A stretch of DNA of 60,863 bases, taken from Gemmatimonas sp. (GTDB taxonomy: Bacteria; Gemmatimonadota; Gemmatimonadetes; Gemmatimonadales; Gemmatimonadaceae). The notes under the pieces were generated by a model. It worked only from the letters and a program-made list of their open reading frames with translations. It did not search any database and was not told the origin of the DNA. Where the stretch lies: assembly GCF_021298855.1 (NCBI RefSeq), contig NZ_JAJTHI010000029.1, forward strand, positions 1 through 60,863. Reading direction: 5' to 3'. Position numbers and translations under genes: made by a program. Shown here piece after piece: positions 32,317-45,732 of the stretch; positions within the stretch are counted from its first letter, which is position 1; each line of letters starts with the position of its first letter.

Positions 32317-32859
32317 TCAGGGCGCCCGCTTCCGGGCGGAATCCGTCGCGGCCGGCGCCGCGGCCGGTGCCTTGGCCGAATCCTTGACGCGCGTGGAGAT
32401 GGGCGTCCGGATGTTCATGCCGGGTTCATCGGCCTCCAGGATATCCTGGGTCCAGTCCTGCGTCTTCTGCAACTCCTTCGTGGAGTCACGCCGGAACTGG
32501 ATGGCCATGGCCCACATGCCCGCCGTGACGAACATGAGGTTGCTGCGATAGGTGCCAAGCTCGCCGGTTTCCTCGAACCCGTTGGACACGGTCTTCATAT
32601 CCTTGTTGGTGGCGAAGATGCGGCCTTCGCCCCCCTGGATGGGCACGCCGGTTTCGCGGTCGTGCACGATGACCCGCCAGTAGATGGGCTCGAGCGCGCG
32701 CGTCGGAATGGTTTCCGGAGCGACTCGGATGACGAACGAGTCGGTACGAAACCGCAGCTCCCGAATGTTCTTGCGGCCGGCGTCACAGCCAGCGCTGAAA
32801 GCGCCGGCCGTGATCGCGAAAGCCGCGCCGGCGATCCAGCGCGCGCGCGTGTATGTCAT
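32317..32859 (-). CDS. Predicted lipoprotein
   Basis: 180 residues. Signal peptide ending in the lipobox FSAGC. The mature part has beta-rich segments (FRTDSFVIRVAPETIPTRALEPIYWRVIVHDRETGVPIQGGEGRIFATN and LGTYRSNLMFVTAGMWAMAIQF), reminiscent of an immunoglobulin-like YtkA/FixH-type domain, then an Ala/Pro tail. No function is claimed. Its start overlaps the end of the inositol phosphate synthase gene by 4 bases. Confidence 0.7.
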   Translation of the reverse strand: MTYTRARWIAGAAFAITAGAFSAGCDAGRKNIRELRFRTDSFVIRVAPETIPTRALEPIYWRVIVHDRETGVPIQGGEGRIFATNKDMKTVSNGFEETGELGTYRSNLMFVTAGMWAMAIQFRRDSTKELQKTQDWTQDILEADEPGMNIRTPISTRVKDSAKAPAAAPAATDSARKRAP

Positions 32860-34187
32860 TGATAGTATTCCAGCCCGAGGTGCGTGATCTGGTCCTCACC
32901 CATGAGGTGACGGAGCGTGTTCTTCAGCTTCGTCTGCTGGATGAAAAGGTCGTGCTCGGGCTGCAATCCCGCAGCCACCGTGGGCGCCTTGTAATAGAAG
33001 CTTAACCATTCCTGAATGCCCTTCATCCCGGCACGCTGGGCGAAGTCGCTGAACAGGGCGAGGTCGAGCACGAGCGGCGCGGCCAGGATGGAGTCGCGGC
33101 AGAGGAAGTTGACCTTGATCTGCATCGGGTAGCCGAGCCACCCCTTGATGTCGATGTTGTCCCAGCCTTCCTTGTTGTCGCCGCGCGGCGGGTAGTAGTT
33201 GATGCGCACGACGTGCGAGAAATCCTTGTACAGCTCGGGGTACTTCTCGGGCTGCAGAATGGTGTGCAGCACGGAGAGCTTCGACTCCTCCTTGGTCTTG
33301 AACGACGCCGGATCATCGAGCACTTCGCCGTCGCGGTTGCCGAGGATGTTGGTGGAGTACCAGCCCTCGAGGCCCAGCATGCGCGCCTTCATGCCCGGCG
33401 CGATGACGGTCTTCATCCACGTCTGGCCGGTCTTGAAGTCCTTGCCCGAAATGGGGACGCCCTGACGGTTCGCCAGGTCGACCATCGCCGGGAAATCGGC
33501 CGAGAGGTTCGGCGCGCCGTTGCAGTAGGCAACACCTTCCATGATGGCCGCGTACGCGTAGAGCATCGACGGCGCGATGGCGTCGTCGTTCTCCTCCATG
33601 GCCTTCTCGAAGGCTTCGATAGTCTGATGCTGCGGGCCGGGCTTGATGTAGGTCTCGGTGGAGCCGCACCAGACCATGGCGCCCCGCGTGGCGCCGTTGG
33701 CCGCCATGAAGCTGCGGATGTCGGCGCGCAGCTGCTCGGCAAGATCCTTCTTCGTCTTGCCGGACTTCACGTTGGTCGCACCGGTGATGCGCGTGACGTA
33801 GCGGCTTTCGAACACCGCCGGCATGGGCTTGATGCTCTTGAGGAAGTCGGCGATGGGTTCGATGTCGTCCTTGACGAGCACTCCGGCCTTGGTGGCCGCG
33901 GTGTACGCGTCATCGGGGATCGGATCCCAGGCCCCGAAGACGATGTCCTCGAGCGAGGCGAGGGGTACGAAGTCCTTGATGAGCGGGCTGCGGTTGTCCG
34001 TACGCTTGCCGAGGCGGATGGTGGCCATCTGGGTGAGCGAACCGATGGGCACCGACAGGCCGCGGCGCACGCGCTCGACGCCGGCAATGAAGGTGGTCGC
34101 CACGGCGCCGAGTCCCGGCGTGAAGATGGCGAGCTTCCCCGTGGCCGGGGCGATGTTCGCGGGAGTCCCGCGGGTCGAGTCGGACAC
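32856..34187 (-). CDS. ino1: Inositol-3-phosphate synthase (myo-inositol-1-phosphate synthase)
   Basis: Isomerises glucose 6-phosphate to inositol 3-phosphate through an NAD-bound intermediate. The 443-residue protein has the nucleotide-binding start LAIFTPGLGAVATTFIAGVE, VWCGSTETYIKPGP, YCNGAPNLSADFPAM, GKDFKTGQTWMKTVIAPG, and the catalytic region LEGWYSTNILGNRDG and QIKVNFLCRDSILAAPL. It lies 5 bases after the CDP-alcohol phosphatidyltransferase gene, giving the two key steps toward phosphatidylinositol. Length and motifs are those of the prokaryotic type. Confidence 0.95.
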   Translation of the reverse strand: MSDSTRGTPANIAPATGKLAIFTPGLGAVATTFIAGVERVRRGLSVPIGSLTQMATIRLGKRTDNRSPLIKDFVPLASLEDIVFGAWDPIPDDAYTAATKAGVLVKDDIEPIADFLKSIKPMPAVFESRYVTRITGATNVKSGKTKKDLAEQLRADIRSFMAANGATRGAMVWCGSTETYIKPGPQHQTIEAFEKAMEENDDAIAPSMLYAYAAIMEGVAYCNGAPNLSADFPAMVDLANRQGVPISGKDFKTGQTWMKTVIAPGMKARMLGLEGWYSTNILGNRDGEVLDDPASFKTKEESKLSVLHTILQPEKYPELYKDFSHVVRINYYPPRGDNKEGWDNIDIKGWLGYPMQIKVNFLCRDSILAAPLVLDLALFSDFAQRAGMKGIQEWLSFYYKAPTVAAGLQPEHDLFIQQTKLKNTLRHLMGEDQITHLGLEYYQ

Positions 34188-34192
34188 TGCGT

Positions 34193-34834
34193 TTATTCTC
34201 CAGGAGAAGTAGGTGTCGGAGCAGCCGTGGCGGTGCGATGGACATACGCCATGCGCTGGAAGAACGTGACCCAGGCCGTGACCATGAGGAGCGTCACGAT
34301 ACCGGCCAGCACCAAGCCGTGCAGCGCAAGGCCGAAGAACGCCTGCGGCGCGGCCAGCAGCGTGATGCGCTCAGGGCGCTGCAGCACGCCCACACGCGCC
34401 GAGAAGCCGAGCCCTTCGGCGCGCGCGTTGGTGTATGACGTAAGGAACGTGGCGATGAGCGCCAGAGTTGCCACGATGACCATGCCCTGATTGGCGTGCT
34501 GCCCATGCGTGGCGTAGAACACCACGAGCCCGCCGAGCAGGAAGCCGTCTGCCACCCGGTCGAGGGTGGAATCATAGAACGCGCCGAACAGACTGGTGGT
34601 CCCCGTCCGTCGCGCGACCGTGCCATCGAGCACATCGAAGAGTGCCGTGAGTCCGAGGAACCAGCCCCCGGTTCGAATGTGGCCGGTCGCGAAGATCACC
34701 CCCGCCGTACAGGTGCAGAGCGTCCCGACAGTGGTGATGGTATTGGGACGCACACGCTTCGCGACCAGCCAGTCTGCCACGGGGGCGATGACTTTCAGGT
34801 ATCCGCTTACGATGGCGTTCCAGATGGCTTTCAT
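34193..34834 (-). CDS. CDP-alcohol phosphatidyltransferase, probable phosphatidylinositol(-phosphate) synthase
   Basis: Transfers a phosphatidyl group from CDP-diacylglycerol to an alcohol. The 213-residue membrane protein has the family motif in DVLDGTVARRTGTTSLFGAFYDSTLDRVADG, which contains D-G-x2-A-R-x8-G-x3-D-x3-D, and five or six hydrophobic helices. The acceptor is inferred to be inositol or inositol phosphate because the next gene, 5 bases on, is inositol-3-phosphate synthase; PgsA-type glycerophosphate specificity is the alternative. It is the first gene of the eleven-gene unit. Confidence 0.88.
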   Translation of the reverse strand: MKAIWNAIVSGYLKVIAPVADWLVAKRVRPNTITTVGTLCTCTAGVIFATGHIRTGGWFLGLTALFDVLDGTVARRTGTTSLFGAFYDSTLDRVADGFLLGGLVVFYATHGQHANQGMVIVATLALIATFLTSYTNARAEGLGFSARVGVLQRPERITLLAAPQAFFGLALHGLVLAGIVTLLMVTAWVTFFQRMAYVHRTATAAPTPTSPGE

Positions 34835-34950: not shown

Positions 34951-36321
34951 TCAACGGTAGAGATGGTAGCGACGGGCGTCCTTTTCGAAGGCCACGACCT
35001 GCGGCAGCAGCCGATCGAGCACGGCGTCGGGATCGCGCCCGGCCAGCAAGGCCTCGCGCACCCGCGCGGAGCCCATGCGGAGGTCGAAGCCGGGGAGCGT
35101 GAGGCGAAGGGAATCGCCATGCACACGATTGAGTGCCCAGAGCAGGGCCGCCCCGATGCGCGCCGGCTGTACGCGTTCCCGATCGGTCACTTCGAGCCGA
35201 ATGCCGGGAATGTTTCGCCCGGGATACTTGTTGTCCCCCGGCTGATCGGGGGTGAAGCGTTCCGCGCGGAACCTCACGCCGGTGAGCGTCAAGTCCTCGA
35301 GCAGGCGCGCCAGGGTATCGGCGCGCAGCCAGGGGGCGCCAATGCGCTGGAAGGGCTGCTCGGTGCCGCGACCCACCGACACGTTGCTCGCCTCGAACGG
35401 CACCAGCGCCGGGTAGAGGAGCGCCGAGGTGAGATTGGGCATGTTGGGGGATGGACGGACCCAGGGAAGCTCCGTGTCGTCGAACCACATGCGCCGTCGC
35501 CAGTTGCGCATGGGGATGACGGAGAGTCGCGTGCCCATCTTGAGATTGGCCTGAAACAGCCGCGCGAGTTCGCCCATGGTGAGGCCGTGTCGCAGGGGCG
35601 AGGGGTAGACGGCGAACCCGTTGGTGCGGTTGGTGCCCGTGGGATACTCGGCGTTGGCCAGGCTCGAATCGAGGAGGGCCCCCTCGGTGAACGCGCCGGA
35701 GAGGGGATTCGGGCGGTCGAGCACGAGCACGGGGATCCCGCGCCGTTCGCCGGCTTGCATGGCGTACAGCACGACGCCCACATACGTCCAGGTCCGTGTC
35801 CCAATGTCCTGCAGGTCGACGACGAGCACGTCCACGTCGTGCAGGAGGCTGTCGGGGGGAGCCATGGTGGTGCGCTGATACAGGGAATGCACCGTGAGGC
35901 CCGTGCGCGCGTCCCGTTCGTCCCCCAGCCCTTCGCGATCCTCGGTGCCCAGCGCGCCGTGCTCGGGGGCAAAGAGGCGCACGAGCTTGACCGAAGCCTG
36001 CTCGGCTCGCGGGTCGGAAAAGAGCAGATCCACCGTTCGCCGTCCGCGTTCGTCGACACCCGTCTGGTTGGTGACGAGCGCGACGCGCTTGCCGGCAATG
36101 AGCTTCACGCTGTCGTCCAGAAGCACCGTGATGCCGGGGCGAACTTTGCGATCGAGGGTCCGCATGCGCAGCCCTGGTGGGAGGTCGGCCCCGTCGTCGG
36201 TAGCCGGGCCTGCCCCGCCCTGCCGTCCGGCGCAAGCGGCCATCCCGGCGGCCAGCGCAAGCAGCGACCAGCGTCGCAGCCTGCCGTGCACTCCAGCCCA
36301 TGTCGCGTTCACGCGCTTCAT
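34951..36321 (-). CDS. namZ: Exo-beta-N-acetylmuramidase NamZ family lipoprotein (DUF1343)
   Basis: NamZ cleaves terminal MurNAc from muropeptide-derived glycans. About 456 residues from MKRVNATWAGVH, with a hydrophobic segment LLALAAGMAAC giving a lipobox-like end. The DUF1343 core has KLIAGKRVALVTNQTGVDERGRRTVDLLF, FAPEHGALG, GLTVHSLY, VDLQDIGTRTWTYV, LDRPNPLSG and RNWRRRMWFDDTELPWVRPSPNMPN, which match the family. The ATG at 36321 sits close to a GGAG, so a start slightly upstream (GTG at 36327, or farther) is possible. It is divergent from the serine hydrolase gene. Confidence 0.88.
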   Translation of the reverse strand: MKRVNATWAGVHGRLRRWSLLALAAGMAACAGRQGGAGPATDDGADLPPGLRMRTLDRKVRPGITVLLDDSVKLIAGKRVALVTNQTGVDERGRRTVDLLFSDPRAEQASVKLVRLFAPEHGALGTEDREGLGDERDARTGLTVHSLYQRTTMAPPDSLLHDVDVLVVDLQDIGTRTWTYVGVVLYAMQAGERRGIPVLVLDRPNPLSGAFTEGALLDSSLANAEYPTGTNRTNGFAVYPSPLRHGLTMGELARLFQANLKMGTRLSVIPMRNWRRRMWFDDTELPWVRPSPNMPNLTSALLYPALVPFEASNVSVGRGTEQPFQRIGAPWLRADTLARLLEDLTLTGVRFRAERFTPDQPGDNKYPGRNIPGIRLEVTDRERVQPARIGAALLWALNRVHGDSLRLTLPGFDLRMGSARVREALLAGRDPDAVLDRLLPQVVAFEKDARRYHLYR

Positions 36322-36396
36322 CTCCACAGTAAGTTCCGAGTGCGTCGACGCGGCCACCCGCGCCACGGCCCCGGTGCGCCCCTTTCCCGCCAACAC

Positions 36397-37665
36397 ATGA
36401 CCGGTACGAATCCCCATCTCCGGCTTCCGCTTCGGTCGGTCCCCGCTAGGAACCTATCATGTCCCCGCACGCGGTGGGCCTGTGCGGCGGCCGCGTCCCT
36501 GCTGCTTGCGGCGTGCCAGTCTGCAGCGCGCCCCCCTGCGCGGCCGGCCGCCGCGGGGGCCGCGGTCTCCGCCGCCGTGCAGCGCGCGGTGGCGGACAGT
36601 CTGCGGACGGTGCTCGAGCGCGCCGTGGCGGAGGGGGCCTTCCCTGGCGGTTACGCCGTGGTGGGTACGCGCGAGGGCATAGTGGCCGAGTATGGCGCGG
36701 GCCGTCTCGACAGTGCCGATGCCGCGAGGCCCACCGCGCAGACGGTATGGGATCTCGCCTCGTTGACCAAGGTGGTCGGGACCACGAGTGCGGTGATGCA
36801 GTTGGTGGCGAACGGCGCGATTGCTCTGGATGAGCCGGTCGTGCGCTACCTGCCCGAGTGGACAGCCCCGGGGGCGACGGGGGTCACGGTGCGTCACCTG
36901 CTGTCCCACCATGCGGGGCTTCCGGCGTGGCGCGCGCTGTACAAGGAAGCCGAGTCCCCCGAGGAGGCGTGGCGGCTGGTACTGGCCACGCCGCTGGATA
37001 CCGTGCCGGGGGTGCGCTTCGTGTACAGCGATCTTGGCTTCATCCTCCTGGGCCGGTTGGTGGAACGGCTCAGTGGCGAACGGCTGGCCGCGTACGGCCC
37101 GCGTCATGTCTTTGGTCCGGCGGGGATGCCCGACACCCGCTACCTGCCCCCCGCATCCTGGCGGGCGCGCACGGCGCCCACGGAGCAGGATCCATGGCGG
37201 CAACGGAAATTGCGGGGCGAGGTACACGACGAGAATGCCGCGCGGCTGGGTGGTGCCTCCGGCCATGCCGGGCTGTTCTCCACGGCCACCGATCTGGCGC
37301 GCTTCGCCCGCCTGTACCTGAACGGCGGGCGACTGGATGGGCGGCAGGTGCTGGATTCTACCGCGATCCGGCAGTTCACCACCGTGCAGAACCCTTCGGT
37401 CTCGCTGCGGGCGCTGGGGTGGGAAACGCCCACGGGGCGCAATTCCGCGGGACGGCGGATGTCGGCACGCGCCTTCGGACACACCGGGTTCACGGGGACG
37501 TCACTCTGGGTGGACCCTGAGCGCAACCTGTTCGTGATCCTGCTCACCAACCGGGTGAATCCCACGCGCCAGAACACCCGCATCGGTGCGGTGCGCAGCC
37601 AACTGGCCGATGCCGTGAACGCGGCCATGAGCGGCGCGCGCTCCGACGCCTCCCCTGGACAGTGA
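36397..37665 (+). CDS. Serine hydrolase of the beta-lactamase/DD-peptidase (class C-like) family, lipoprotein
   Basis: About 422 residues from MTGTNPHLRLPLRSVPA, with signal and lipobox LLLAAC. The penicillin-binding fold has the catalytic SxxK in LASLTKVVGT, YSDLGFILLGRL in place of the Tyr-x-Asn motif, and HTGFTGTSLWVDPERN (HTG in place of KTG). This set is characteristic of family VIII esterase or AmpH-like enzymes rather than resistance beta-lactamases. It lies 75 bases from the divergent namZ, so it may act on cell-wall fragments. A much longer upstream frame is antisense to namZ and not used. Confidence 0.88.
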   Translation: MTGTNPHLRLPLRSVPARNLSCPRTRWACAAAASLLLAACQSAARPPARPAAAGAAVSAAVQRAVADSLRTVLERAVAEGAFPGGYAVVGTREGIVAEYGAGRLDSADAARPTAQTVWDLASLTKVVGTTSAVMQLVANGAIALDEPVVRYLPEWTAPGATGVTVRHLLSHHAGLPAWRALYKEAESPEEAWRLVLATPLDTVPGVRFVYSDLGFILLGRLVERLSGERLAAYGPRHVFGPAGMPDTRYLPPASWRARTAPTEQDPWRQRKLRGEVHDENAARLGGASGHAGLFSTATDLARFARLYLNGGRLDGRQVLDSTAIRQFTTVQNPSVSLRALGWETPTGRNSAGRRMSARAFGHTGFTGTSLWVDPERNLFVILLTNRVNPTRQNTRIGAVRSQLADAVNAAMSGARSDASPGQ

Positions 37666-37762
37666 CGGCAGCCCTGGCGGTGGCGGCGCGGCAGAGCTCT
37701 GGCCGGTGTCGCGCCCCCCAGAGTGACCTGCAGACGGATCCCCGTTCCGTCTCGAGTGTTTC

Positions 37763-37792
37763 TTGCAAGGGGAGTGATCCTCTCGCTATTTT
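37763..37792 (+). promoter_or_regulatory. Sigma-70-like promoter candidate upstream of the IscA-type gene
   Basis: TTGCAA at 37763-37768 and TATTTT at 37787-37792, 18 bases apart, in a 237-base gap. It lies 110 bases before the start codon. Only a consensus-like match; similar matches by chance are possible. Confidence 0.3.
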
Positions 37793-37902
37793 CCGCACAG
37801 CACGAACTGACGCCCACGAGGGGGCGGCTCGCGAGGGCGAGCAGACCACGTGGGTGCAGTCCATCGGGTCGGCAACCGAGCCGGCCGTATCGGAGGACGA
37901 GT

Positions 37903-38259
37903 ATGAGCACGATGCAGCAGCCGGACGTCATGGTGATCATTACGCCTGTGGCCGTGGCCGAAGTGCGCAAGTTCATGGACGCCGAGGGTGTGACCGTCGA
38001 GCAGGGCGGCCTGCGTGTTTCGGTGATGCCCGGCGGATGCAGCGGCTTCAAGTACGGGCTCGTGATCGAGGACAAGTCGGCGGACGACGACATCACGGTC
38101 GAGATCGAGGGGATCAAGGTGTTCGTCGATCCGTTCTCGGCGCAGTACCTCAGCGGCACCACGATCGACTACGTGTCGTCGATGCAGGGGTCGGGCTTCA
38201 CCTTCAAGAATCCGAACAGCACCGGCGGCTGCGGCTGCGGCAGTTCGTTCTCGGCGTGA
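37903..38259 (+). CDS. Iron-sulfur cluster carrier, IscA/ErpA family
   Basis: A-type carrier of 118 residues from MSTMQQPDVMVIITPVAV, with GGAGGA 7-12 bases upstream. Conserved core: VAVAEVRKFMDAEG, GGLRVSVMPGGCSGFKYGL with the first Cys, VDPFSAQYLSGTTIDYV, and the C-terminal NSTGGCGCGSSFSA with the CGC pair. All three cluster-binding Cys are present. Its neighbours concern amino-sugar salvage, not cluster assembly, so the position looks incidental. Confidence 0.93.
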   Translation: MSTMQQPDVMVIITPVAVAEVRKFMDAEGVTVEQGGLRVSVMPGGCSGFKYGLVIEDKSADDDITVEIEGIKVFVDPFSAQYLSGTTIDYVSSMQGSGFTFKNPNSTGGCGCGSSFSA

Positions 38260-38265
38260 CCCGCC

Positions 38266-38300
38266 CGGTCGCCCGACGGGCGATCGTCCCTTCCATTTTT
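38266..38300 (+). terminator. Hairpin with T-run after the IscA-type gene
   Basis: Nine pairs (38266-38274 with 38278-38286, one G-T) around a 3-base loop, then a pyrimidine-rich stretch ending in TTTTT at 38296-38300. It starts 6 bases after the stop. The T-run is not immediately adjacent, so efficiency is uncertain. Confidence 0.45.
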
Positions 38301-38313
38301 CGATCATTTGCTC

Positions 38314-40272
38314 ATGGCCTCCGGATCCACGGCGGCCCGTGACCAGTCGCAGGCCCGCGCGCTCGACGTGAGCGGCGGGCCTGTGCGCGTTGCGGGTACG
38401 CCCTTTGTTCATGCCGGTGTCACCGGTACGGCGCGCGAGCGCATCCCCACCGTCATCATCGACGAACACGGCGCCATGGCGCGAGCGGTGGCGGGGCGCA
38501 TTGCGACGCTCATCCGCGAGCGCGCCAGTGCCGCTCGCCCTCTCGTGCTCGGGCTGGCGACCGGCAGCACGCCGATCGGGGTGTACCGTGAGTTGATCCG
38601 GTTGCACCGCGAAGACGGGGTGAGCTTCCGCCATGTGATCACGTTCAACCTGGACGAGTACTACCCGATGCGGCGGGACAGCATCCACTCGTACCATCGC
38701 TTCATGTGGGAGAATCTCTTCTCGCACGTGGACATCGATCCGGCGCACGTGCACATCCCCGACGGGTCGCTGCCGCGCGCCGACGTGGAGGCCGCGTGTG
38801 CCGCGTACGAACAGCGCATCGCCGACGTGGGCGGCATCGACTTTCAGCTGCTCGGCATCGGCAAGACCGGGCACATCGGCTTCAATGAGCCGGGCTCCGG
38901 CGAGCAGAGCCACACGCGCCTCGTGCACCTCGACAGCATCACGCGCCGTGATGCGGCCGCCGACTTCTTCGGCGAGGAGAATGTGCCGCGCGAGGCGATC
39001 ACGATGGGCATTGCCACCATCATGGGGGCGCGCGAGATCGCGATCCTCGCGACCGGTGAGCACAAGGCCGGTATCGTGCGCCGTGCCGTGGAAGGCGAGA
39101 TCGACCGGGCGGTGGCGGCGACGTTCCTGCAGCGCCATCCGAATACGACCTTCTACGTGGACGACTCGGCGGCGGCTGATCTGACGCGGGTGGCCACCCC
39201 CTGGCTGTTGGACGAAGTGCACTGGGGCGACGCCCTGATGTTGCGCGCCGTGACGTGGCTCGCGGCGAAGTGCGGCAAGGCCATCCTGAAGCTCACGCAG
39301 CAGGACTATGCCGACAATCACCTCACGTCCCTGGTGGCGCGGCACGGCTCACCGGGCGCCGTGAACGGCCTCGTGTTCAACATGCTGGGCGCCAAGATTC
39401 GCGGCAAAAGCAAGCTGCCGCGTGGCTTGCGGACGATCTGCTTCTCGCCGCATCCGGACGACGACGTGATCTCCATGGGGGGCATCCTCCGCAAGTTCGT
39501 GGAGAACGGCAACGACATGACGGTGGCGTACATGACGAGCGGCAACATCGCCGTGTTCGACCATGATGTCCGCCGGTATCTCGACTTCCTCGTGCGCCTC
39601 GACGCCGAGCGCATCGGCGGCGGTTCCTCGGTGCGGGCGCTGGCGGACACGGTGCACGCCTTTCTCGATCGCAAGCAGCCCGGTGAAGTGGACATTGCCG
39701 AGGTGCAGGACATCAAGCGCATCATCCGTGAGTCGGAGGCGGTGAGCGGCATCGAGGTGATGGGCCTGTCCAAGGCGCACGCGCGATTCCTCAACCTGCC
39801 GTTCTACCAGACCGGCAAGGTACGCAAGGACCCGATCGGGCCGGCCGACGTGGCGATCGTGGCCCAGCTGCTGCGCGAGATCCAGCCCGACCTCATTTTC
39901 GTGGCCGGTGACCTGTCGGACCCGCACGGGACGCATCGCATGTGCAAGGAAGCGATCGACCGCGCTGTGGCGGAGGTGTACACGGGCGCGCAAGCGGCTG
40001 CACGCCCGGAGATCTGGCTCTACCGAGGTGCCTGGCAGGAGTGGCCGGTGACGGAAGCCACGGTGCTGGTGCCGTTGTCGCAGGAGGAGCTGACGCTGAA
40101 GATTCAGGCGATCTTCAAGCATCAGTCGCAGAAGGACTCGGCGCCCTTCCCCGGGCAGGACGAGCGGGAGTTCTGGCAGCGCGTGGAACAGCGCAACAAG
40201 ACGACGGCACGCCAGCTCGACCAACTCGGTCTGGCGGAGTACTTCGCCATGGAGGCGTATGTCATCGCGTAA
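38314..40272 (+). CDS. nagB: Fusion of glucosamine-6-phosphate deaminase (NagB) with a PIG-L/LmbE-type deacetylase
   Basis: About 652 residues (ATG 38314; a TTG two codons earlier is possible). N-terminal NagB domain (about 45-310) has LGLATGSTPIGVYRELIRLH, FNLDEYYPM, and GIGKTGHIGFNEPGSG. After a linker, the C-terminal domain (about 370-650) begins ICFSPHPDDDVISMGGI and contains SDPHGTHRMC, as in zinc-dependent LmbE/PIG-L deacetylases. NagB deaminates glucosamine 6-phosphate to fructose 6-phosphate. The LmbE half may remove the acetyl group from an N-acetylated sugar. No nagA is seen, which makes the fusion a candidate replacement. Similar fusions are known in Bacteroidota. Confidence 0.92.
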   Translation: MASGSTAARDQSQARALDVSGGPVRVAGTPFVHAGVTGTARERIPTVIIDEHGAMARAVAGRIATLIRERASAARPLVLGLATGSTPIGVYRELIRLHREDGVSFRHVITFNLDEYYPMRRDSIHSYHRFMWENLFSHVDIDPAHVHIPDGSLPRADVEAACAAYEQRIADVGGIDFQLLGIGKTGHIGFNEPGSGEQSHTRLVHLDSITRRDAAADFFGEENVPREAITMGIATIMGAREIAILATGEHKAGIVRRAVEGEIDRAVAATFLQRHPNTTFYVDDSAAADLTRVATPWLLDEVHWGDALMLRAVTWLAAKCGKAILKLTQQDYADNHLTSLVARHGSPGAVNGLVFNMLGAKIRGKSKLPRGLRTICFSPHPDDDVISMGGILRKFVENGNDMTVAYMTSGNIAVFDHDVRRYLDFLVRLDAERIGGGSSVRALADTVHAFLDRKQPGEVDIAEVQDIKRIIRESEAVSGIEVMGLSKAHARFLNLPFYQTGKVRKDPIGPADVAIVAQLLREIQPDLIFVAGDLSDPHGTHRMCKEAIDRAVAEVYTGAQAAARPEIWLYRGAWQEWPVTEATVLVPLSQEELTLKIQAIFKHQSQKDSAPFPGQDEREFWQRVEQRNKTTARQLDQLGLAEYFAMEAYVIA

Positions 40273-40311
40273 CGGCGCGATCGCTCGCCGTGCGTCCGGT
40301 ACGGTGCGCGC

Positions 40312-41853
40312 ATGAGCGGCGGCTTCACGCTCCTCGACTGGACGGTGCTGGTGGTGTATCTGCTGGGTACCACGGCGCTGGGCATGTGGCTGGGGCGCGA
40401 CCAGAAGGATGCCCGCGACTATTTCGTGGCGAGCCAGCGCATTCCGTGGTGGGCGATCCTCTTCTCGGTCGTGGCCACCGAAACGAGTGCGCTGACGTTC
40501 ATTTCGATTCCGGGACTCGCGTACGTGGGGAACCTGTCGTTCCTGCAGGTGGCCGCCGGCTACATCCTGGGGCGCATCGTCATCTCGTACACGCTGCTGC
40601 CGCGCTACTACCAGGGCGAGCTGGTCACGGCATATGCGCTGCTGGAGAAGCGGTTTGGTCTGGCGACGCGGCGATTCGCGTCGGTGGTGTTCATGGTGAC
40701 CCGGTCGTTTGGCGACAGTGTCCGGGTGTTCGCCACGGCCATCCCGGTTGCCCTCATCATCGGCCCGGTCGTGCCGGCGCAGTATGTGGGGCCGTTGTCG
40801 ATCCTCATTCTTGGCGCCTTCACGGTGCTGTACACCTACCACGGCGGGATGCGTGCCGTGGTCTGGACCGACGTGCTGCAGACCGGCGTGTATCTCATTG
40901 GCGGCGTGGCCGCCATGTGGTTGCTGGGGAACGGCGTGGACGGCGGATGGAGCGCCATTCTCGACGGCGCGGCGGCGCAGGGCAAGTTGCAGATCATCGA
41001 CCGCTACACGGGCATCGACCGTCCGCACACCCTCTGGGCCGGGCTCATTGGCGGTGCGTTCCTGAGCATGGCATCGCACGGTGCCGATCAGATGATCGTC
41101 CAGCGACTGATGGCTTCCGGGAGCCTTTCCGACGCCCGCCGTTCGCTGATTGGCAGCGGCGTGGTGGTGCTGGGGCAGTTTCTCATGTTCCTGCTCATCG
41201 GCATCGGCCTGCACGCGTACTACGCGGGCGAAGTCTTCCCGCGCCCCGACGCCATCTTTCCGCGGTTCATCGTGGAGGTCATGCCGCCGGGGCTGACCGG
41301 GCTGGTGATTGCCGCCATTCTGGCGGCGGCCATGAGTACGGTCTCGGGCGCGCTCAATTCGCTGGCGGCCGCCACGTTGCATGATCTCTACCTGCCCCTC
41401 ACCGGCAAGCGGCAGGACGACCCGGGGGTTCTGCGCACCAGCAAGCTGTTCACGCTGATCTGGGCGGCCGTGCTCATCGGCGGCGCCATGCTGTACCGCA
41501 ACGAAGGCACCCCGGTGGTGACCATCGCGCTCTCCATCGCCTCGTTCACCTATGGCGGACTGCTCGGGGCGTTCTTCCTGGCGATGCTGGTGGCACGGGC
41601 CACCCAGCGTGACGCGATCGCCGGGATGGCCACGGGAATCGGCATCATGACCTTCGTGGTGTTCGCGAAGGCGATTTCGGGATGGGTCCCGGCCTTGGCA
41701 CCGACGCTGGCGCCGTTCGTTCGCATCGCGTGGCCCTGGTACGTCCTGATCGGGACCTCGCTTACTTTCGTCACGGGTTGGTTGTTGTCGTTCACCCACG
41801 CGGCGCCCGCCGACTCGGCCGGAGCGTCGCTCGCCTCGAGGAGTGCAAGATGA
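40312..41853 (+). CDS. Sodium:solute symporter (SSS family)
   Basis: 513-residue protein with about 13 hydrophobic helices. Start MSGGFTLLDWTVLVVYLLGTTALG; signature stretches SVVATETSALTFISIPGLAYV and MASHGADQMIVQRLMAS, with VIAAILAAAMSTVSGALNSLAA. It sits 39 bases after the NagB fusion and overlaps the kinase gene by 4 bases. Substrate is inferred from neighbours to be an amino sugar or anhydro-sugar (GlcNAc, MurNAc). Confidence 0.9.
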   Translation: MSGGFTLLDWTVLVVYLLGTTALGMWLGRDQKDARDYFVASQRIPWWAILFSVVATETSALTFISIPGLAYVGNLSFLQVAAGYILGRIVISYTLLPRYYQGELVTAYALLEKRFGLATRRFASVVFMVTRSFGDSVRVFATAIPVALIIGPVVPAQYVGPLSILILGAFTVLYTYHGGMRAVVWTDVLQTGVYLIGGVAAMWLLGNGVDGGWSAILDGAAAQGKLQIIDRYTGIDRPHTLWAGLIGGAFLSMASHGADQMIVQRLMASGSLSDARRSLIGSGVVVLGQFLMFLLIGIGLHAYYAGEVFPRPDAIFPRFIVEVMPPGLTGLVIAAILAAAMSTVSGALNSLAAATLHDLYLPLTGKRQDDPGVLRTSKLFTLIWAAVLIGGAMLYRNEGTPVVTIALSIASFTYGGLLGAFFLAMLVARATQRDAIAGMATGIGIMTFVVFAKAISGWVPALAPTLAPFVRIAWPWYVLIGTSLTFVTGWLLSFTHAAPADSAGASLASRSAR

Positions 41854-42800
41854 GCGCCGGACCTCTTGACCCGACGCCATTGGTGGTGGGCGTGGATGGT
41901 GGTGGAAGCCACACGCGCGTGCTTCTGGCCGACGCCGCAGGCAGTGTGCTCGCCCGCGTGGAAGGCCCCGGGAGCGCGCTGCGCCCCGGTGCGGAGGGGG
42001 CGGCGGCGGACATCATCAAGGCGCTCATTCACGACGCGCTCGCCAAGGCGGAGCGTACGGAGACGCGACCGGCCGTGTGCGTGGTTGGCGTGGCGGGCGC
42101 CGGGCAGGAACGGGCAGCGCAGGCGCTCTGGTCGGTGCTCGCCAAGCATCGCGTCGCTGACGATGTGTCCGTGCAGGCGGACGCGGTGATTGCCATGGAC
42201 GACGCGTTTGGCGATTCGGCCGGTGTGCTGCTGGTTGCGGGCACCGGTTCGGTGGCGTACTCCAAGGCGCCGGACGGGCGTCTCGAGCGCTGCGGGGGGT
42301 GGGGACCGAACGTCGGCGATGAGGGGAGCGCGCATTGGCTCGGGCGCCGTGCCCTGAGCGTCGTGACGGCCGCGTACGATGGCCGCGAGCCGGAAACGGC
42401 GTTGGGAGGCGCGGTGCTCACGGCCCTGGAGCTCGAAACGCTGGACGACCTGATTCCGTGGGCGGCGCACGCAACACCGGCCATGCTGGCGCAGTTGGCG
42501 CCGGTGGTGGCGCAGGTGGCGGGCACCGGAGACTTGCGGGCCAACGCGCTGATCTCGTTCTGTGTGGAGGAGTTGGCGTTGCATGTGCGCACCCTCGCCC
42601 GACGCTGCTTCACCGACGAGCGGGCCGCCATTCCGGTCGCTCTGGCGGGCGGGCTGCTCTCCCGCGGCTCGCTGGTGCGCAAGCGACTCGAGCAGCGTCT
42701 CAAGAGTGCGGTACCGGGCGCGACCGTGCGCAGCGACGACGTGGACGCCGCGCGCGGTGCGGTGCGTCGTGCGCGGCGCCTGCTGGGAGTCGAGGTCTAG
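41850..42800 (+). CDS. BadF/BadG/BcrA/BcrD-type ATPase, probable N-acetylglucosamine or MurNAc kinase
   Basis: About 316 residues. The ATG at 41850 overlaps the symporter stop (ATGA). The actin-like fold shows VVGVDGGGSHTRVLLADAAG (phosphate 1), CVVGVAGAGQERAAQAL, DAVIAMDDAFGDSAGVLLVAGTGSVAYS (phosphate 2) and VALAGGLLSRGSL. The family includes GlcNAc kinases and MurNAc/GlcNAc kinase MurK. With the symporter and NagB it would phosphorylate the imported sugar. Last gene before the terminator. Confidence 0.88.
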   Translation: MSAGPLDPTPLVVGVDGGGSHTRVLLADAAGSVLARVEGPGSALRPGAEGAAADIIKALIHDALAKAERTETRPAVCVVGVAGAGQERAAQALWSVLAKHRVADDVSVQADAVIAMDDAFGDSAGVLLVAGTGSVAYSKAPDGRLERCGGWGPNVGDEGSAHWLGRRALSVVTAAYDGREPETALGGAVLTALELETLDDLIPWAAHATPAMLAQLAPVVAQVAGTGDLRANALISFCVEELALHVRTLARRCFTDERAAIPVALAGGLLSRGSLVRKRLEQRLKSAVPGATVRSDDVDAARGAVRRARRLLGVEV

Positions 42801-42934: not shown

Positions 42935-44221
42935 TCAGGCGGGCACGGGCTCGGTGACCGGGCCGTCCTTCAACTCGCCTTCCCACCGGGCCATCACGGC
43001 AGTGGCGAGGCAATTCCCGAGCAGGTTCACCGAGGTGCGCGCCATGTCCATGATGGCGTCAACCCCGAGAATGATGGCAATGCCTTCGAGCGGCAGGCCA
43101 AACTGCGCGAGCGCGCCGGAGAGGATCACGAGGCTTGCCCGCGGGACGGCGGCGACGCCCTTGGAGGTGAGCATGAGCGTGAGCATCATGAGCAGCTGGG
43201 TCCCGAGGGGCATGTCGATGCCGGCGGCCTGCGCCACGAACACCGAGGCGATGGCGAGATACAGCGTGCTGCCGTCGAGATTGAACGAGTAGCCGGTGGG
43301 GAGCACGAACGACACGATGCGCCGCGGCACGCCGAACTTCTCCATGGCCTGCATGGCCTGCGGGAAGGCGGCTTCGGACGAGGCCGTGGAGAACGCGATG
43401 AGCCAGGGTTCCTTGACCAGCGCCCAGAAGCGCTTGATGTCGATGCGGGCGAGCAGTGCGACCGGCAGCAGCACGAGGACGACGAACACGATGAGCGACA
43501 CGTACAGCGTGCCCACGAGCTTCGCGAGGTTGAGCATGACGTCGAGGCCGCTCTTGCCCACCGTCACCCCGATGGCGGCCCCGATCCCGATGGGGGCGTA
43601 GGCCATGACGATGCCGACGAACTTGAACATGATGTCGCTGAGCGACTGCAGCCAATCGATCATGAACTTCTTCGACGGCCCCTCCACCTTGGCGAGCGCG
43701 ACGGCGAAGATGATGGCGAAGAAGACGATCTGCAGCACCTCATTCTGCGCGGCCGCCTCGAAGAAGCTCTGCGGCACCGTGTGCTCGAGCACCGACGCAA
43801 AGGTGGGCGTCTTGGCGGCGAGTGCCTTGAACTCCTCGCTGTCGCCGGCCGCCGAGATGGCGAGACCGACGCCTGGTTTCGCCAGATTGACGGCGATCAG
43901 GCCGATCGCGAGGGCCAGCGTGGTCACCACCTCGAAGTAGATGATCGAGCGCAGCGCCAGCTTGCCGACCTTCTTCATGTCGTCGCCGTGACCGGCGATG
44001 CCCACCACCAGGGTGCTGAACAGCAGCGGCACGATCAGCGACTTGATCATGCGCAGGAAGATGTTGGCCAGCGGCTTGAGGTTCTGCGAGAAATCCGGGG
44101 CCAGCCACCCAATGAGGATGCCGACGATCATCGAGATGATGATCCAGCCGGTGAAGCCGATGCCAAGGAATCCCTTCTTGCCGGGGGCGGTGGCGGGTGT
44201 GTCGGCGGACAGATGTGCCAT
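42935..44221 (-). CDS. Dicarboxylate/amino acid:cation symporter (DAACS family)
   Basis: About 428 residues from MAHLSADTPATAPGKKGF. Glutamate-transporter fold with eight helices and two hairpins: LIVPLLFSTLVVGIAGHGD, the serine-rich loop STASSEAAFPQAM (family SSSxA), GYSFNLDGSTLYLAIASVFVAQA with the conserved N-x-D-G segment, and the C-terminal LEGIAIILGVDAIMDMARTSVNLLGNCLATAVM containing the D-x-x-x-D-M-x-R-T-x-x-N motif. Transports glutamate, aspartate or C4 dicarboxylates with Na+ or H+. The start follows the first reasonable ATG after a basic upstream extension. Confidence 0.92.
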   Translation of the reverse strand: MAHLSADTPATAPGKKGFLGIGFTGWIIISMIVGILIGWLAPDFSQNLKPLANIFLRMIKSLIVPLLFSTLVVGIAGHGDDMKKVGKLALRSIIYFEVVTTLALAIGLIAVNLAKPGVGLAISAAGDSEEFKALAAKTPTFASVLEHTVPQSFFEAAAQNEVLQIVFFAIIFAVALAKVEGPSKKFMIDWLQSLSDIMFKFVGIVMAYAPIGIGAAIGVTVGKSGLDVMLNLAKLVGTLYVSLIVFVVLVLLPVALLARIDIKRFWALVKEPWLIAFSTASSEAAFPQAMQAMEKFGVPRRIVSFVLPTGYSFNLDGSTLYLAIASVFVAQAAGIDMPLGTQLLMMLTLMLTSKGVAAVPRASLVILSGALAQFGLPLEGIAIILGVDAIMDMARTSVNLLGNCLATAVMARWEGELKDGPVTEPVPA

Positions 44222-44247
44222 GGGACGGGAAGAAGGTGAGCCGGCGC

Positions 44248-45732
44248 TCAGCGATCCGTGGCGCCGGTGCGCAGCACGGAGTGGCGATAGCCGTAGACGA
44301 AGTACAGCCCGAGACCGACTGCCATCCATACGCCGAACGCGATCCACGCGCTGACGGGCAGTCCCTTCATGACGAAGACGCAGGCGCCGGCGCCGATGAG
44401 CGTGACGGCCCAGACGAACGGGACACGGAAGGGGCGCGGACGGTCGGGTTCGCGGATGCGCAGCACCAGCACGCCGATGCAGACCACCGCAAAGGCTGCC
44501 AGCGTGCCGATGTTGGTGAGGTCATAGGTCGCGGCATCGTCGGCCAGCAGCGCCCCCAGCGACACGAGCCCGCCGGTGATGAGGGTGGTGACCTTGGGGG
44601 TGCGCGTCTTGGGATCGAGCTTGGCGGCAAAGCGTGGCAGCAGGCCATCGCGCGCCATGGCGTAGAAGATGCGCGGCTGGCCGTACTGGAACACCAGCAG
44701 CACCGCGGACATGGACACCACGGCCCCGGCGGCCACGATCCAGCTGGCGGTCTCCAGGCCGGCGAGCGAAAGCGCCTTGGCCAGCGGGTCGGAGCTGCGG
44801 AGCTGATCGTACGGCACGAGGCCGGTGGCCACGAAGCCGACGATCACGTAGATGAGCGTGCAGATGGCGAGCCCGCCCAGGATGCCGCGCGGCAGGTTCC
44901 GCTGCGGGTCTTTGGTTTCCTCGGCGGCCGTGGAGATGGCGTCGAACCCGATGTACGCGAAGAAGACGATGGCGGCACCCTGATGGATGCCGGTGAATCC
45001 GTTGGGGGCGAAGGGCTTGTAGTTGGCCGGATCGATGTGCAACGCCCCCACGATGACGAACAGCCCCAGCACGATGAGCTTGATGATCACCATGATGTTG
45101 TTCGCCCGGGTGCTCTCCTTGACGCCGCGCATGAGCAGGGCGGTGATGGCGGCGACGATGCTGAAGGCGGGAAGGTTGATCAGGACGGGCACGCCGGCCA
45201 CGCGCGGCGCGCTGTCGAGCAGTGCGCGAACGGCGGGATCGCTACTGGCCTTCACGTTCCAGTAGCCGTGGGTGAGCCACGCGGGGAGTTCGATGCCGAA
45301 CCCGCTGAGCAAGGCGTTGAAGTACCCCCCCCAGCCGATCGCGACCGCCACGTTGCCGACGGCATACTCGAGAATGAGCGCCCAGCCTACGATCCAGGCG
45401 ACGATTTCGCCGAGGGTGGCATACGAGTAGGCATAGGCGCTGCCGGCCTGGGGAATCATGGCGGCCAGCTCGGCGTAGCAGAGAGCCGCGAGTCCGCAGA
45501 CGGCGCCGAGCAGCACAAAGGACAGCACCAGCGCGGGTCCTGCCCCGTAGCGCACGACCGTGCCATCGGCGAGGGTCTCGCCGGCGGCGGCCGTACCGAG
45601 GGAGGAGAAGATACCGGCCCCGATCACGGCGCCAATGGCCAGCATGACGAGATCGCCTGCGCCAAGCGTGCGGCGCATGCCGTGTTCACCGTCGTCGGCA
45701 GCGACGATCGGCTTACGAGCGAACAGCCCCAT
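44248..45732 (-). CDS. APC-family amino-acid permease (cationic amino-acid transporter type)
   Basis: 494 residues, about 12-13 hydrophobic segments. Start MGLFARKPIVAADDGEHGMRRTLGAGDLVMLAIGAVIGAGIFS; the GAVIGAGIF motif marks APC transporters. FIAYIGFDAISTAAEETKDPQRNLPRGI is the consensus loop of the CAT-type subfamily. It lies just upstream of the DAACS gene (26 bases between the coding regions), so both may be co-expressed for amino-acid uptake. Confidence 0.92.
   Translation of the reverse strand: MGLFARKPIVAADDGEHGMRRTLGAGDLVMLAIGAVIGAGIFSSLGTAAAGETLADGTVVRYGAGPALVLSFVLLGAVCGLAALCYAELAAMIPQAGSAYAYSYATLGEIVAWIVGWALILEYAVGNVAVAIGWGGYFNALLSGFGIELPAWLTHGYWNVKASSDPAVRALLDSAPRVAGVPVLINLPAFSIVAAITALLMRGVKESTRANNIMVIIKLIVLGLFVIVGALHIDPANYKPFAPNGFTGIHQGAAIVFFAYIGFDAISTAAEETKDPQRNLPRGILGGLAICTLIYVIVGFVATGLVPYDQLRSSDPLAKALSLAGLETASWIVAAGAVVSMSAVLLVFQYGQPRIFYAMARDGLLPRFAAKLDPKTRTPKVTTLITGGLVSLGALLADDAATYDLTNIGTLAAFAVVCIGVLVLRIREPDRPRPFRVPFVWAVTLIGAGACVFVMKGLPVSAWIAFGVWMAVGLGLYFVYGYRHSVLRTGATDR

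Follow-up and report, generated by a model that had tools for sequence, protein, structure and literature searches.

A NagB-LmbE fusion as a candidate substitute for NagA in a cell-wall sugar salvage locus of Gemmatimonas

How can a bacterium that lacks NagA remove the acetyl group from N-acetylglucosamine 6-phosphate (GlcNAc-6-P)? This question is raised by a gene cluster at positions 34,951-42,800 of contig NZ_JAJTHI010000029.1 of Gemmatimonas sp. (RefSeq assembly GCF_021298855.1), the analyzed window being the whole contig of 60,863 nucleotides. The cluster encodes a fusion of NagB, the deaminase of glucosamine 6-phosphate (GlcN-6-P), with an LmbE/PIG-L domain, and a sequence-only reading had proposed that the LmbE half could take over the role of NagA. 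Our analysis indicates that the fusion is probably a bifunctional enzyme that deacetylates GlcNAc-6-P, deaminates the resulting GlcN-6-P and thereby closes a salvage route for N-acetylmuramic acid (MurNAc) and N-acetylglucosamine (GlcNAc). The broader proposition, that the LmbE half is a non-orthologous GlcNAc-6-P deacetylase replacing NagA class-wide and in part of Bacteroidota, and that deacetylation, not the annotated deamination, is the conserved function of a family whose name derives from a NagB half that is sometimes dead, appears to us evenly balanced.

Absence of NagA and the gap in the salvage route

Protein families were assigned by profile scores against curated cut-offs (NCBIfam, TIGR and Pfam), and structures by comparison with the PDB. 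The source genome (4.09 Mb, 91 contigs, completeness 99.5%) has Gemmatimonas and other Gemmatimonadaceae assemblies as its closest relatives within the genome collection. In this genome, the NagA profile TIGR00221 reached at best 22.5 bits (cut-off 225.65), matching only pieces of large amidohydrolases, and a query with E. coli NagA returned short matches only. Because both kinds of query gave fragmentary matches within large amidohydrolases, a NagA hidden as a diverged amidohydrolase was rejected, and the absence of NagA, earlier noted for the cluster, holds genome-wide. In a control of the profile search at E 1e-20, the NagA-bearing B. subtilis was missing from the matches, indicating that the profile search alone can miss NagA genes; this weakness is offset by the E. 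coli NagA query and by positive finds in a sister class and in Parabacteroides distasonis.

The search was extended to 150 Gemmatimonadota genomes, each at least 90% complete (146 from the class of the source genome and 4 from its sister class). NagA exceeded the TIGR00221 cut-off in 0 of the 150 genomes, and full-length NagA-like matches at E ≤1e-20 were found only in the four sister-class genomes, in agreement with the E. coli NagA query. The fusion exceeded its cut-off in 97 of the 146 genomes of the class and in none of the four sister-class genomes, which have a stand-alone NagB and no murQ; the residues of this NagB are canonical in the three sister-class genomes inspected.

murQ, which the sequence-only reading did not see at the locus, is indeed missing from the cluster but present elsewhere in the genome. 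A murQ-anmK-GH3 operon is present on contig C73 (L016:7500-11110; murQ 366 bits), in which murQ overlaps anmK, and anmK overlaps a glycoside hydrolase family 3 (GH3) gene whose product is NagZ-like. Given the gene content of the genome, the route MurNAc to MurNAc-6-P to GlcNAc-6-P to GlcN-6-P to fructose-6-P can be written on paper, with deacetylation as the sole step without its usual enzyme. A glmS-like gene and a gene resembling those of phosphohexomutases are neighbors on contig C45, as seen by inspection. Two further PIG-L genes are present in the genome, one of which encodes a BshB1 scoring above its cut-off; the LmbE half is therefore not needed for bacillithiol, and its assignment as BshB was rejected.

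Co-occurrence was assessed by Fisher tests in which kinship was ignored. murQ is present in all 97 fusion genomes and in 44 of the 49 fusion-less genomes of the class (p 0.004), and hence in nearly the whole class; where both NagA and the fusion are missing, GlcNAc-6-P has no known exit. The idea that murQ is the reason for needing a deacetylase is weakened by these 44 genomes, and the co-occurrence of NamZ with the fusion is uninformative, as NamZ is nearly universal (p 0.06).

The fusion protein in Gemmatimonadota and Bacteroidota

The fusion is not unusual: it belongs to a known NCBIfam subfamily, NF002557/PRK02122 (915.7 bits, cut-off 384, profile positions 21-648 of 653), which is also present in Bacteroidota; no relatives were found in the viral contigs searched. 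Numbered from the TTG at 38308, the NagB half covers approximately residues 46-300 and the LmbE/PIG-L half approximately residues 370-654, and the two pass TIGR00502 (259.3 bits, cut-off 236.9) and PF02585 (66.1 bits, cut-off 28.2), respectively. In an AlphaFold2 model built from 57 homologues (predicted local distance difference test score 89, predicted template modelling score 0.79), the NagB half superimposes on 2bkv, the NagB of B. subtilis, with Z 37.9 and a root-mean-square deviation of 1.1 over 242 residues. The LmbE half matches BshB with Z 21.6 and an archaeal diacetylchitobiose deacetylase (Dac) with Z 20.4, and MshB scores below both (Z 16). When structures were searched with the sequence of the LmbE half, diacetylchitobiose deacetylases were the only ones found.

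Both halves keep intact catalytic motifs. In an alignment of 57 Gemmatimonadota fusions, the LmbE half shows the zinc motifs HPDDD and DPHGTH without any variation (57/57), and the NagB half retains the equivalents of the E. coli catalytic residues D72, H143 and E148 and of the phosphate-site residue K208 in every sequence. D72 corresponds to D116 of the Gemmatimonas fusion. The position of K160, at the allosteric site of the E. coli enzyme, is occupied by V or I.

The Bacteroidota fusions, taken from PLSDB records that are classed as plasmids and several of which resemble chromosome pieces, indicate which half is maintained. The Hymenobacter and Fibrella fusions sit in chitin/GlcNAc clusters with GH18 or GH20 hydrolases, major facilitator superfamily (MFS) sugar transporters and, in some cases, ROK kinases, and no nagA was found on the fusion-bearing records of these genera, to which the search was confined. 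Four Bacteroidales fusions, from Bacteroides finegoldii, P. distasonis, Prevotella and Phocaeicola, form one clade (support 0.999) in which the NagB half is dead (D72 to Y, H143 to N). The LmbE motif is intact in 27 of the 28 fusions compared; a single copy, from Hymenobacter, reads DPNGTH. The dead-NagB fusions of Prevotella and Phocaeicola each follow a live stand-alone nagB at a distance of 2-3 bp (L131:5992-8771 and L141:6013-8796); the stand-alone nagB of B. finegoldii is on a different record. We read the combination of a dead NagB half, an intact LmbE half and an adjacent live nagB as a sign that the LmbE activity is the part under selection and that it works with NagB. The evolution of the fusion outside Gemmatimonadota suggests that the deacetylase head is the part that matters most. 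The NagB halves of the fusions form a group apart from the stand-alone NagBs (support 1.0), consistent with a single origin of the fusion. In public annotation, related copies still carry the name glucosamine-6-phosphate deaminase.

The surrounding cluster and a proposed route

All genes that the sequence-only reading had named are present with intact frames, as judged from open reading frame (ORF) calls and profile matches, and their content supports a cell-wall sugar salvage cluster. The features are as follows.

34951..36321, minus strand: NamZ exo-beta-N-acetylmuramidase, predicted lipoprotein (PF07075 219.7 bits and PF20732 137 bits, both above cut-off)
36397..37665, plus strand: beta-lactamase-fold serine hydrolase, predicted lipoprotein (PF00144 225.7 bits; lipobox; SxxK motif SLTK)
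37903..38259, plus strand: A-type Fe-S carrier, ErpA/SufA-like (TIGR00049 118 bits, above cut-off; NF010147 ErpA 115.1 bits, cut-off 117)
38314..40272, plus strand: NagB-LmbE fusion (NF002557 915.7 bits; PF01182 and PF02585 above cut-off)
40312..41853, plus strand: SSS sodium:solute symporter, proposed amino-sugar importer (TIGR00813 213 bits and PF00474, above cut-off)
41850..42800, plus strand: BadF/NAGK-type kinase, proposed MurNAc/GlcNAc kinase (PF01869 129.6 bits)

The namZ and serine hydrolase genes are divergent, with 76 bp between their starts at 36321 and 36397, and both products have lipoprotein-like N-termini; the NamZ ORF is open to 36417, and 36321 was chosen by inspection as the likely start. 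The best PDB match of NamZ is 4k05 (E 3e-53). A second NamZ gene is located on contig C31 (L140:6032-7381, 252.9 bits). The serine hydrolase scores 146 bits against NF002968 (PBP4B), below the cut-off of that profile, and its PDB matches are esterases; its role may be amidase- or esterase-like. The Fe-S carrier, which was absent from the earlier gene list, sits between the hydrolase and the fusion, with no evident reason for its place in amino-sugar salvage. The symporter has 5nv9, a putative sodium:solute symporter, as its best PDB match. The ATG of the kinase gene overlaps the symporter stop, and the kinase has the MurNAc/GlcNAc kinase 8zo3 as its best PDB match (E 2.5e-30), with 101 bits against the NagK profile NF046058 (cut-off 370). 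The sugar taken by both would presumably be MurNAc or GlcNAc.

Among 84 related loci, 58 of which extend at least 3 kb 3' and 39 at least 7.5 kb 5' of the fusion, the order of the cluster is kept far beyond chance. The symporter and then the kinase directly follow the fusion in 39 of the 58 loci, and the upstream side has the hydrolase in 29, the Fe-S carrier, beside the fusion, in 27 and a divergent namZ in 25 of the 39. A GH3 relative of NagZ is found in 16 of the 84 loci, mostly between namZ and the hydrolase gene. Two flanking features each recur in 30 of the 84 loci, namely an inositol-phosphate synthase (INO1) gene with a phosphatidylinositol-phosphate-synthase-like gene after namZ on its strand (32856-34834), and a dicarboxylate/glutamate-type (SDF) symporter gene after the kinase on the opposite strand (42935-44347).

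In the proposed route, NamZ, as a periplasmic lipoprotein, would free MurNAc from peptidoglycan, and the serine hydrolase would probably trim muropeptides. The SSS symporter would import the sugar, and the BadF kinase would make MurNAc-6-P or GlcNAc-6-P. MurQ, encoded elsewhere with AnmK and the NagZ-like GH3 enzyme, would turn MurNAc-6-P into GlcNAc-6-P. The LmbE half would then stand in for the missing NagA as the deacetylase, with GlcNAc-6-P as its likely substrate, and the NagB half would deaminate GlcN-6-P to fructose-6-P, possibly with channelling between the two halves.

Alternative explanations and known systems

Several observations weigh against this assignment. The equivalent of E. 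coli D141 is T or S in the Gemmatimonadota fusions, and R172, which binds the substrate phosphate in E. coli NagB, is absent from the NagB halves of the fusions and kept in 11 of 12 stand-alone NagBs. Loss of R172 means that the phosphate is held some other way or that the substrate differs, which is the main biochemical worry. As the D141 position is N in B. subtilis NagB, D141 is not universal, and the missing D141 and R172 lower but do not exclude membership among NagB deaminases. Two nagA genes lie directly upstream of the P. distasonis fusion, whose LmbE motif is intact, and the fusion is isolated from the cluster in some related loci. Of the 146 class genomes, 44 carry murQ and have neither NagA nor the fusion, implying that GlcNAc-6-P can be produced within the class even when both are missing; several such genomes also contain the murQ-anmK(-GH3) operon. 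In the literature searched, no characterization or biochemical test of any NagB-LmbE fusion was found, and a review of LmbE proteins does not mention NagB. In Flavobacterium johnsoniae, deletion of nagB, possibly a fusion gene, from the chitin utilization locus (ChiUL) had no phenotype and the protein was not expressible (PMC5127042); NagA of that bacterium was assigned to Fjoh_3974 (PMC5127042). The idea that the LmbE half substitutes for NagA is upheld in part. The absence of NagA from the genome and from the 146 class genomes, the intact zinc motif, the amino-sugar deacetylase fold and the retention of LmbE where a dead NagB half lies beside a live nagB support it, and the P. distasonis nagA pair and the 44 genomes do not.

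The LmbE half may instead deacetylate an unphosphorylated or other amino sugar (GlcNAc, chitobiose or a MurNAc derivative) before the kinase acts, like archaeal Dac, with NagB acting after phosphorylation. The exclusively Dac structures found by sequence, the missing R172 and the nagA retained beside the fusion in P. distasonis would all fit such an order, but the fusion to NagB, whose substrate is GlcN-6-P, and the operons with live nagB in two genomes make it unlikely. It is quite unlikely that an unrecognized deacetylase or mutase route handles GlcNAc-6-P in the class and leaves the LmbE half a side role: the 44 genomes with murQ alone, several with the murQ-anmK-GH3 operon, favor such a route, whereas murQ is present in every fusion genome and the GlcNAc clusters of Bacteroidota bear the fusion with no nagA on the same record. 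An altered or mainly regulatory NagB half that does not deaminate GlcN-6-P would account for the changes at D141 and R172 and for the dead half in Bacteroidales, and yet the four residues kept in all 57 Gemmatimonadota copies and the close fold match to B. subtilis NagB render it improbable. Deacetylation of GlcNAc-inositol or GlcNAc-phosphatidylinositol in the service of the neighboring genes for an inositol-phosphate synthase and a CDP-alcohol transferase, suggested by the position of these genes behind namZ and by the use of such substrates by PIG-L and MshB, is hardly credible, since the genes are on the other strand and are not annotated at the Bacteroidota fusion loci inspected, and MshB is a poorer structural match than BshB and Dac.

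If the LmbE half is indeed a GlcNAc-6-P deacetylase, NagA-free genomes that seem unable to use GlcNAc or MurNAc would be able to do so, with pathway tools missing the deacetylation step, and the Bacteroidales proteins named glucosamine-6-phosphate deaminase would be misnamed deacetylases with a dead deaminase half. The family would then pose a single well-defined question for enzymology, and the naturally occurring copies with a dead half would serve as controls.

Compared with known systems, the fusion has the same two-domain architecture as the "glucosamine-6-phosphate deaminase-like protein" of NF002557/PRK02122, whose top-scoring Bacteroidales members have a dead NagB half, whereas the NagB half of the Gemmatimonas fusion keeps the main catalytic residues. 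The E. coli nagBA pathway likewise deacetylates and then deaminates GlcNAc-6-P, but its NagA is an amidohydrolase, in contrast to the LmbE-type metalloenzyme fused to NagB that is proposed here. Archaeal Dac and BshB, the nearest structures to the LmbE half, share with it the LmbE/PIG-L fold, the zinc motif and amino-sugar N-deacetylation, but have just 17-21% sequence identity to it in the aligned core, act on other substrates and are not fused to NagB. In B. subtilis, a NamZ/NagZ/amidase/MurQ cluster serves MurNAc salvage. The closest described MurNAc salvage system is murTKQ of Tannerella forsythia (PMC10465942, PMC7670621). Like the Gemmatimonas genome described here, these two systems salvage MurNAc by means of NamZ, MurQ and a BadF kinase of the MurK kind; the transporter here is an SSS symporter that need not be equivalent to MurT, and, unlike in T. 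forsythia and B. subtilis, murQ here is in a separate operon with anmK and GH3, and the NagB-LmbE fusion lies inside the cluster.

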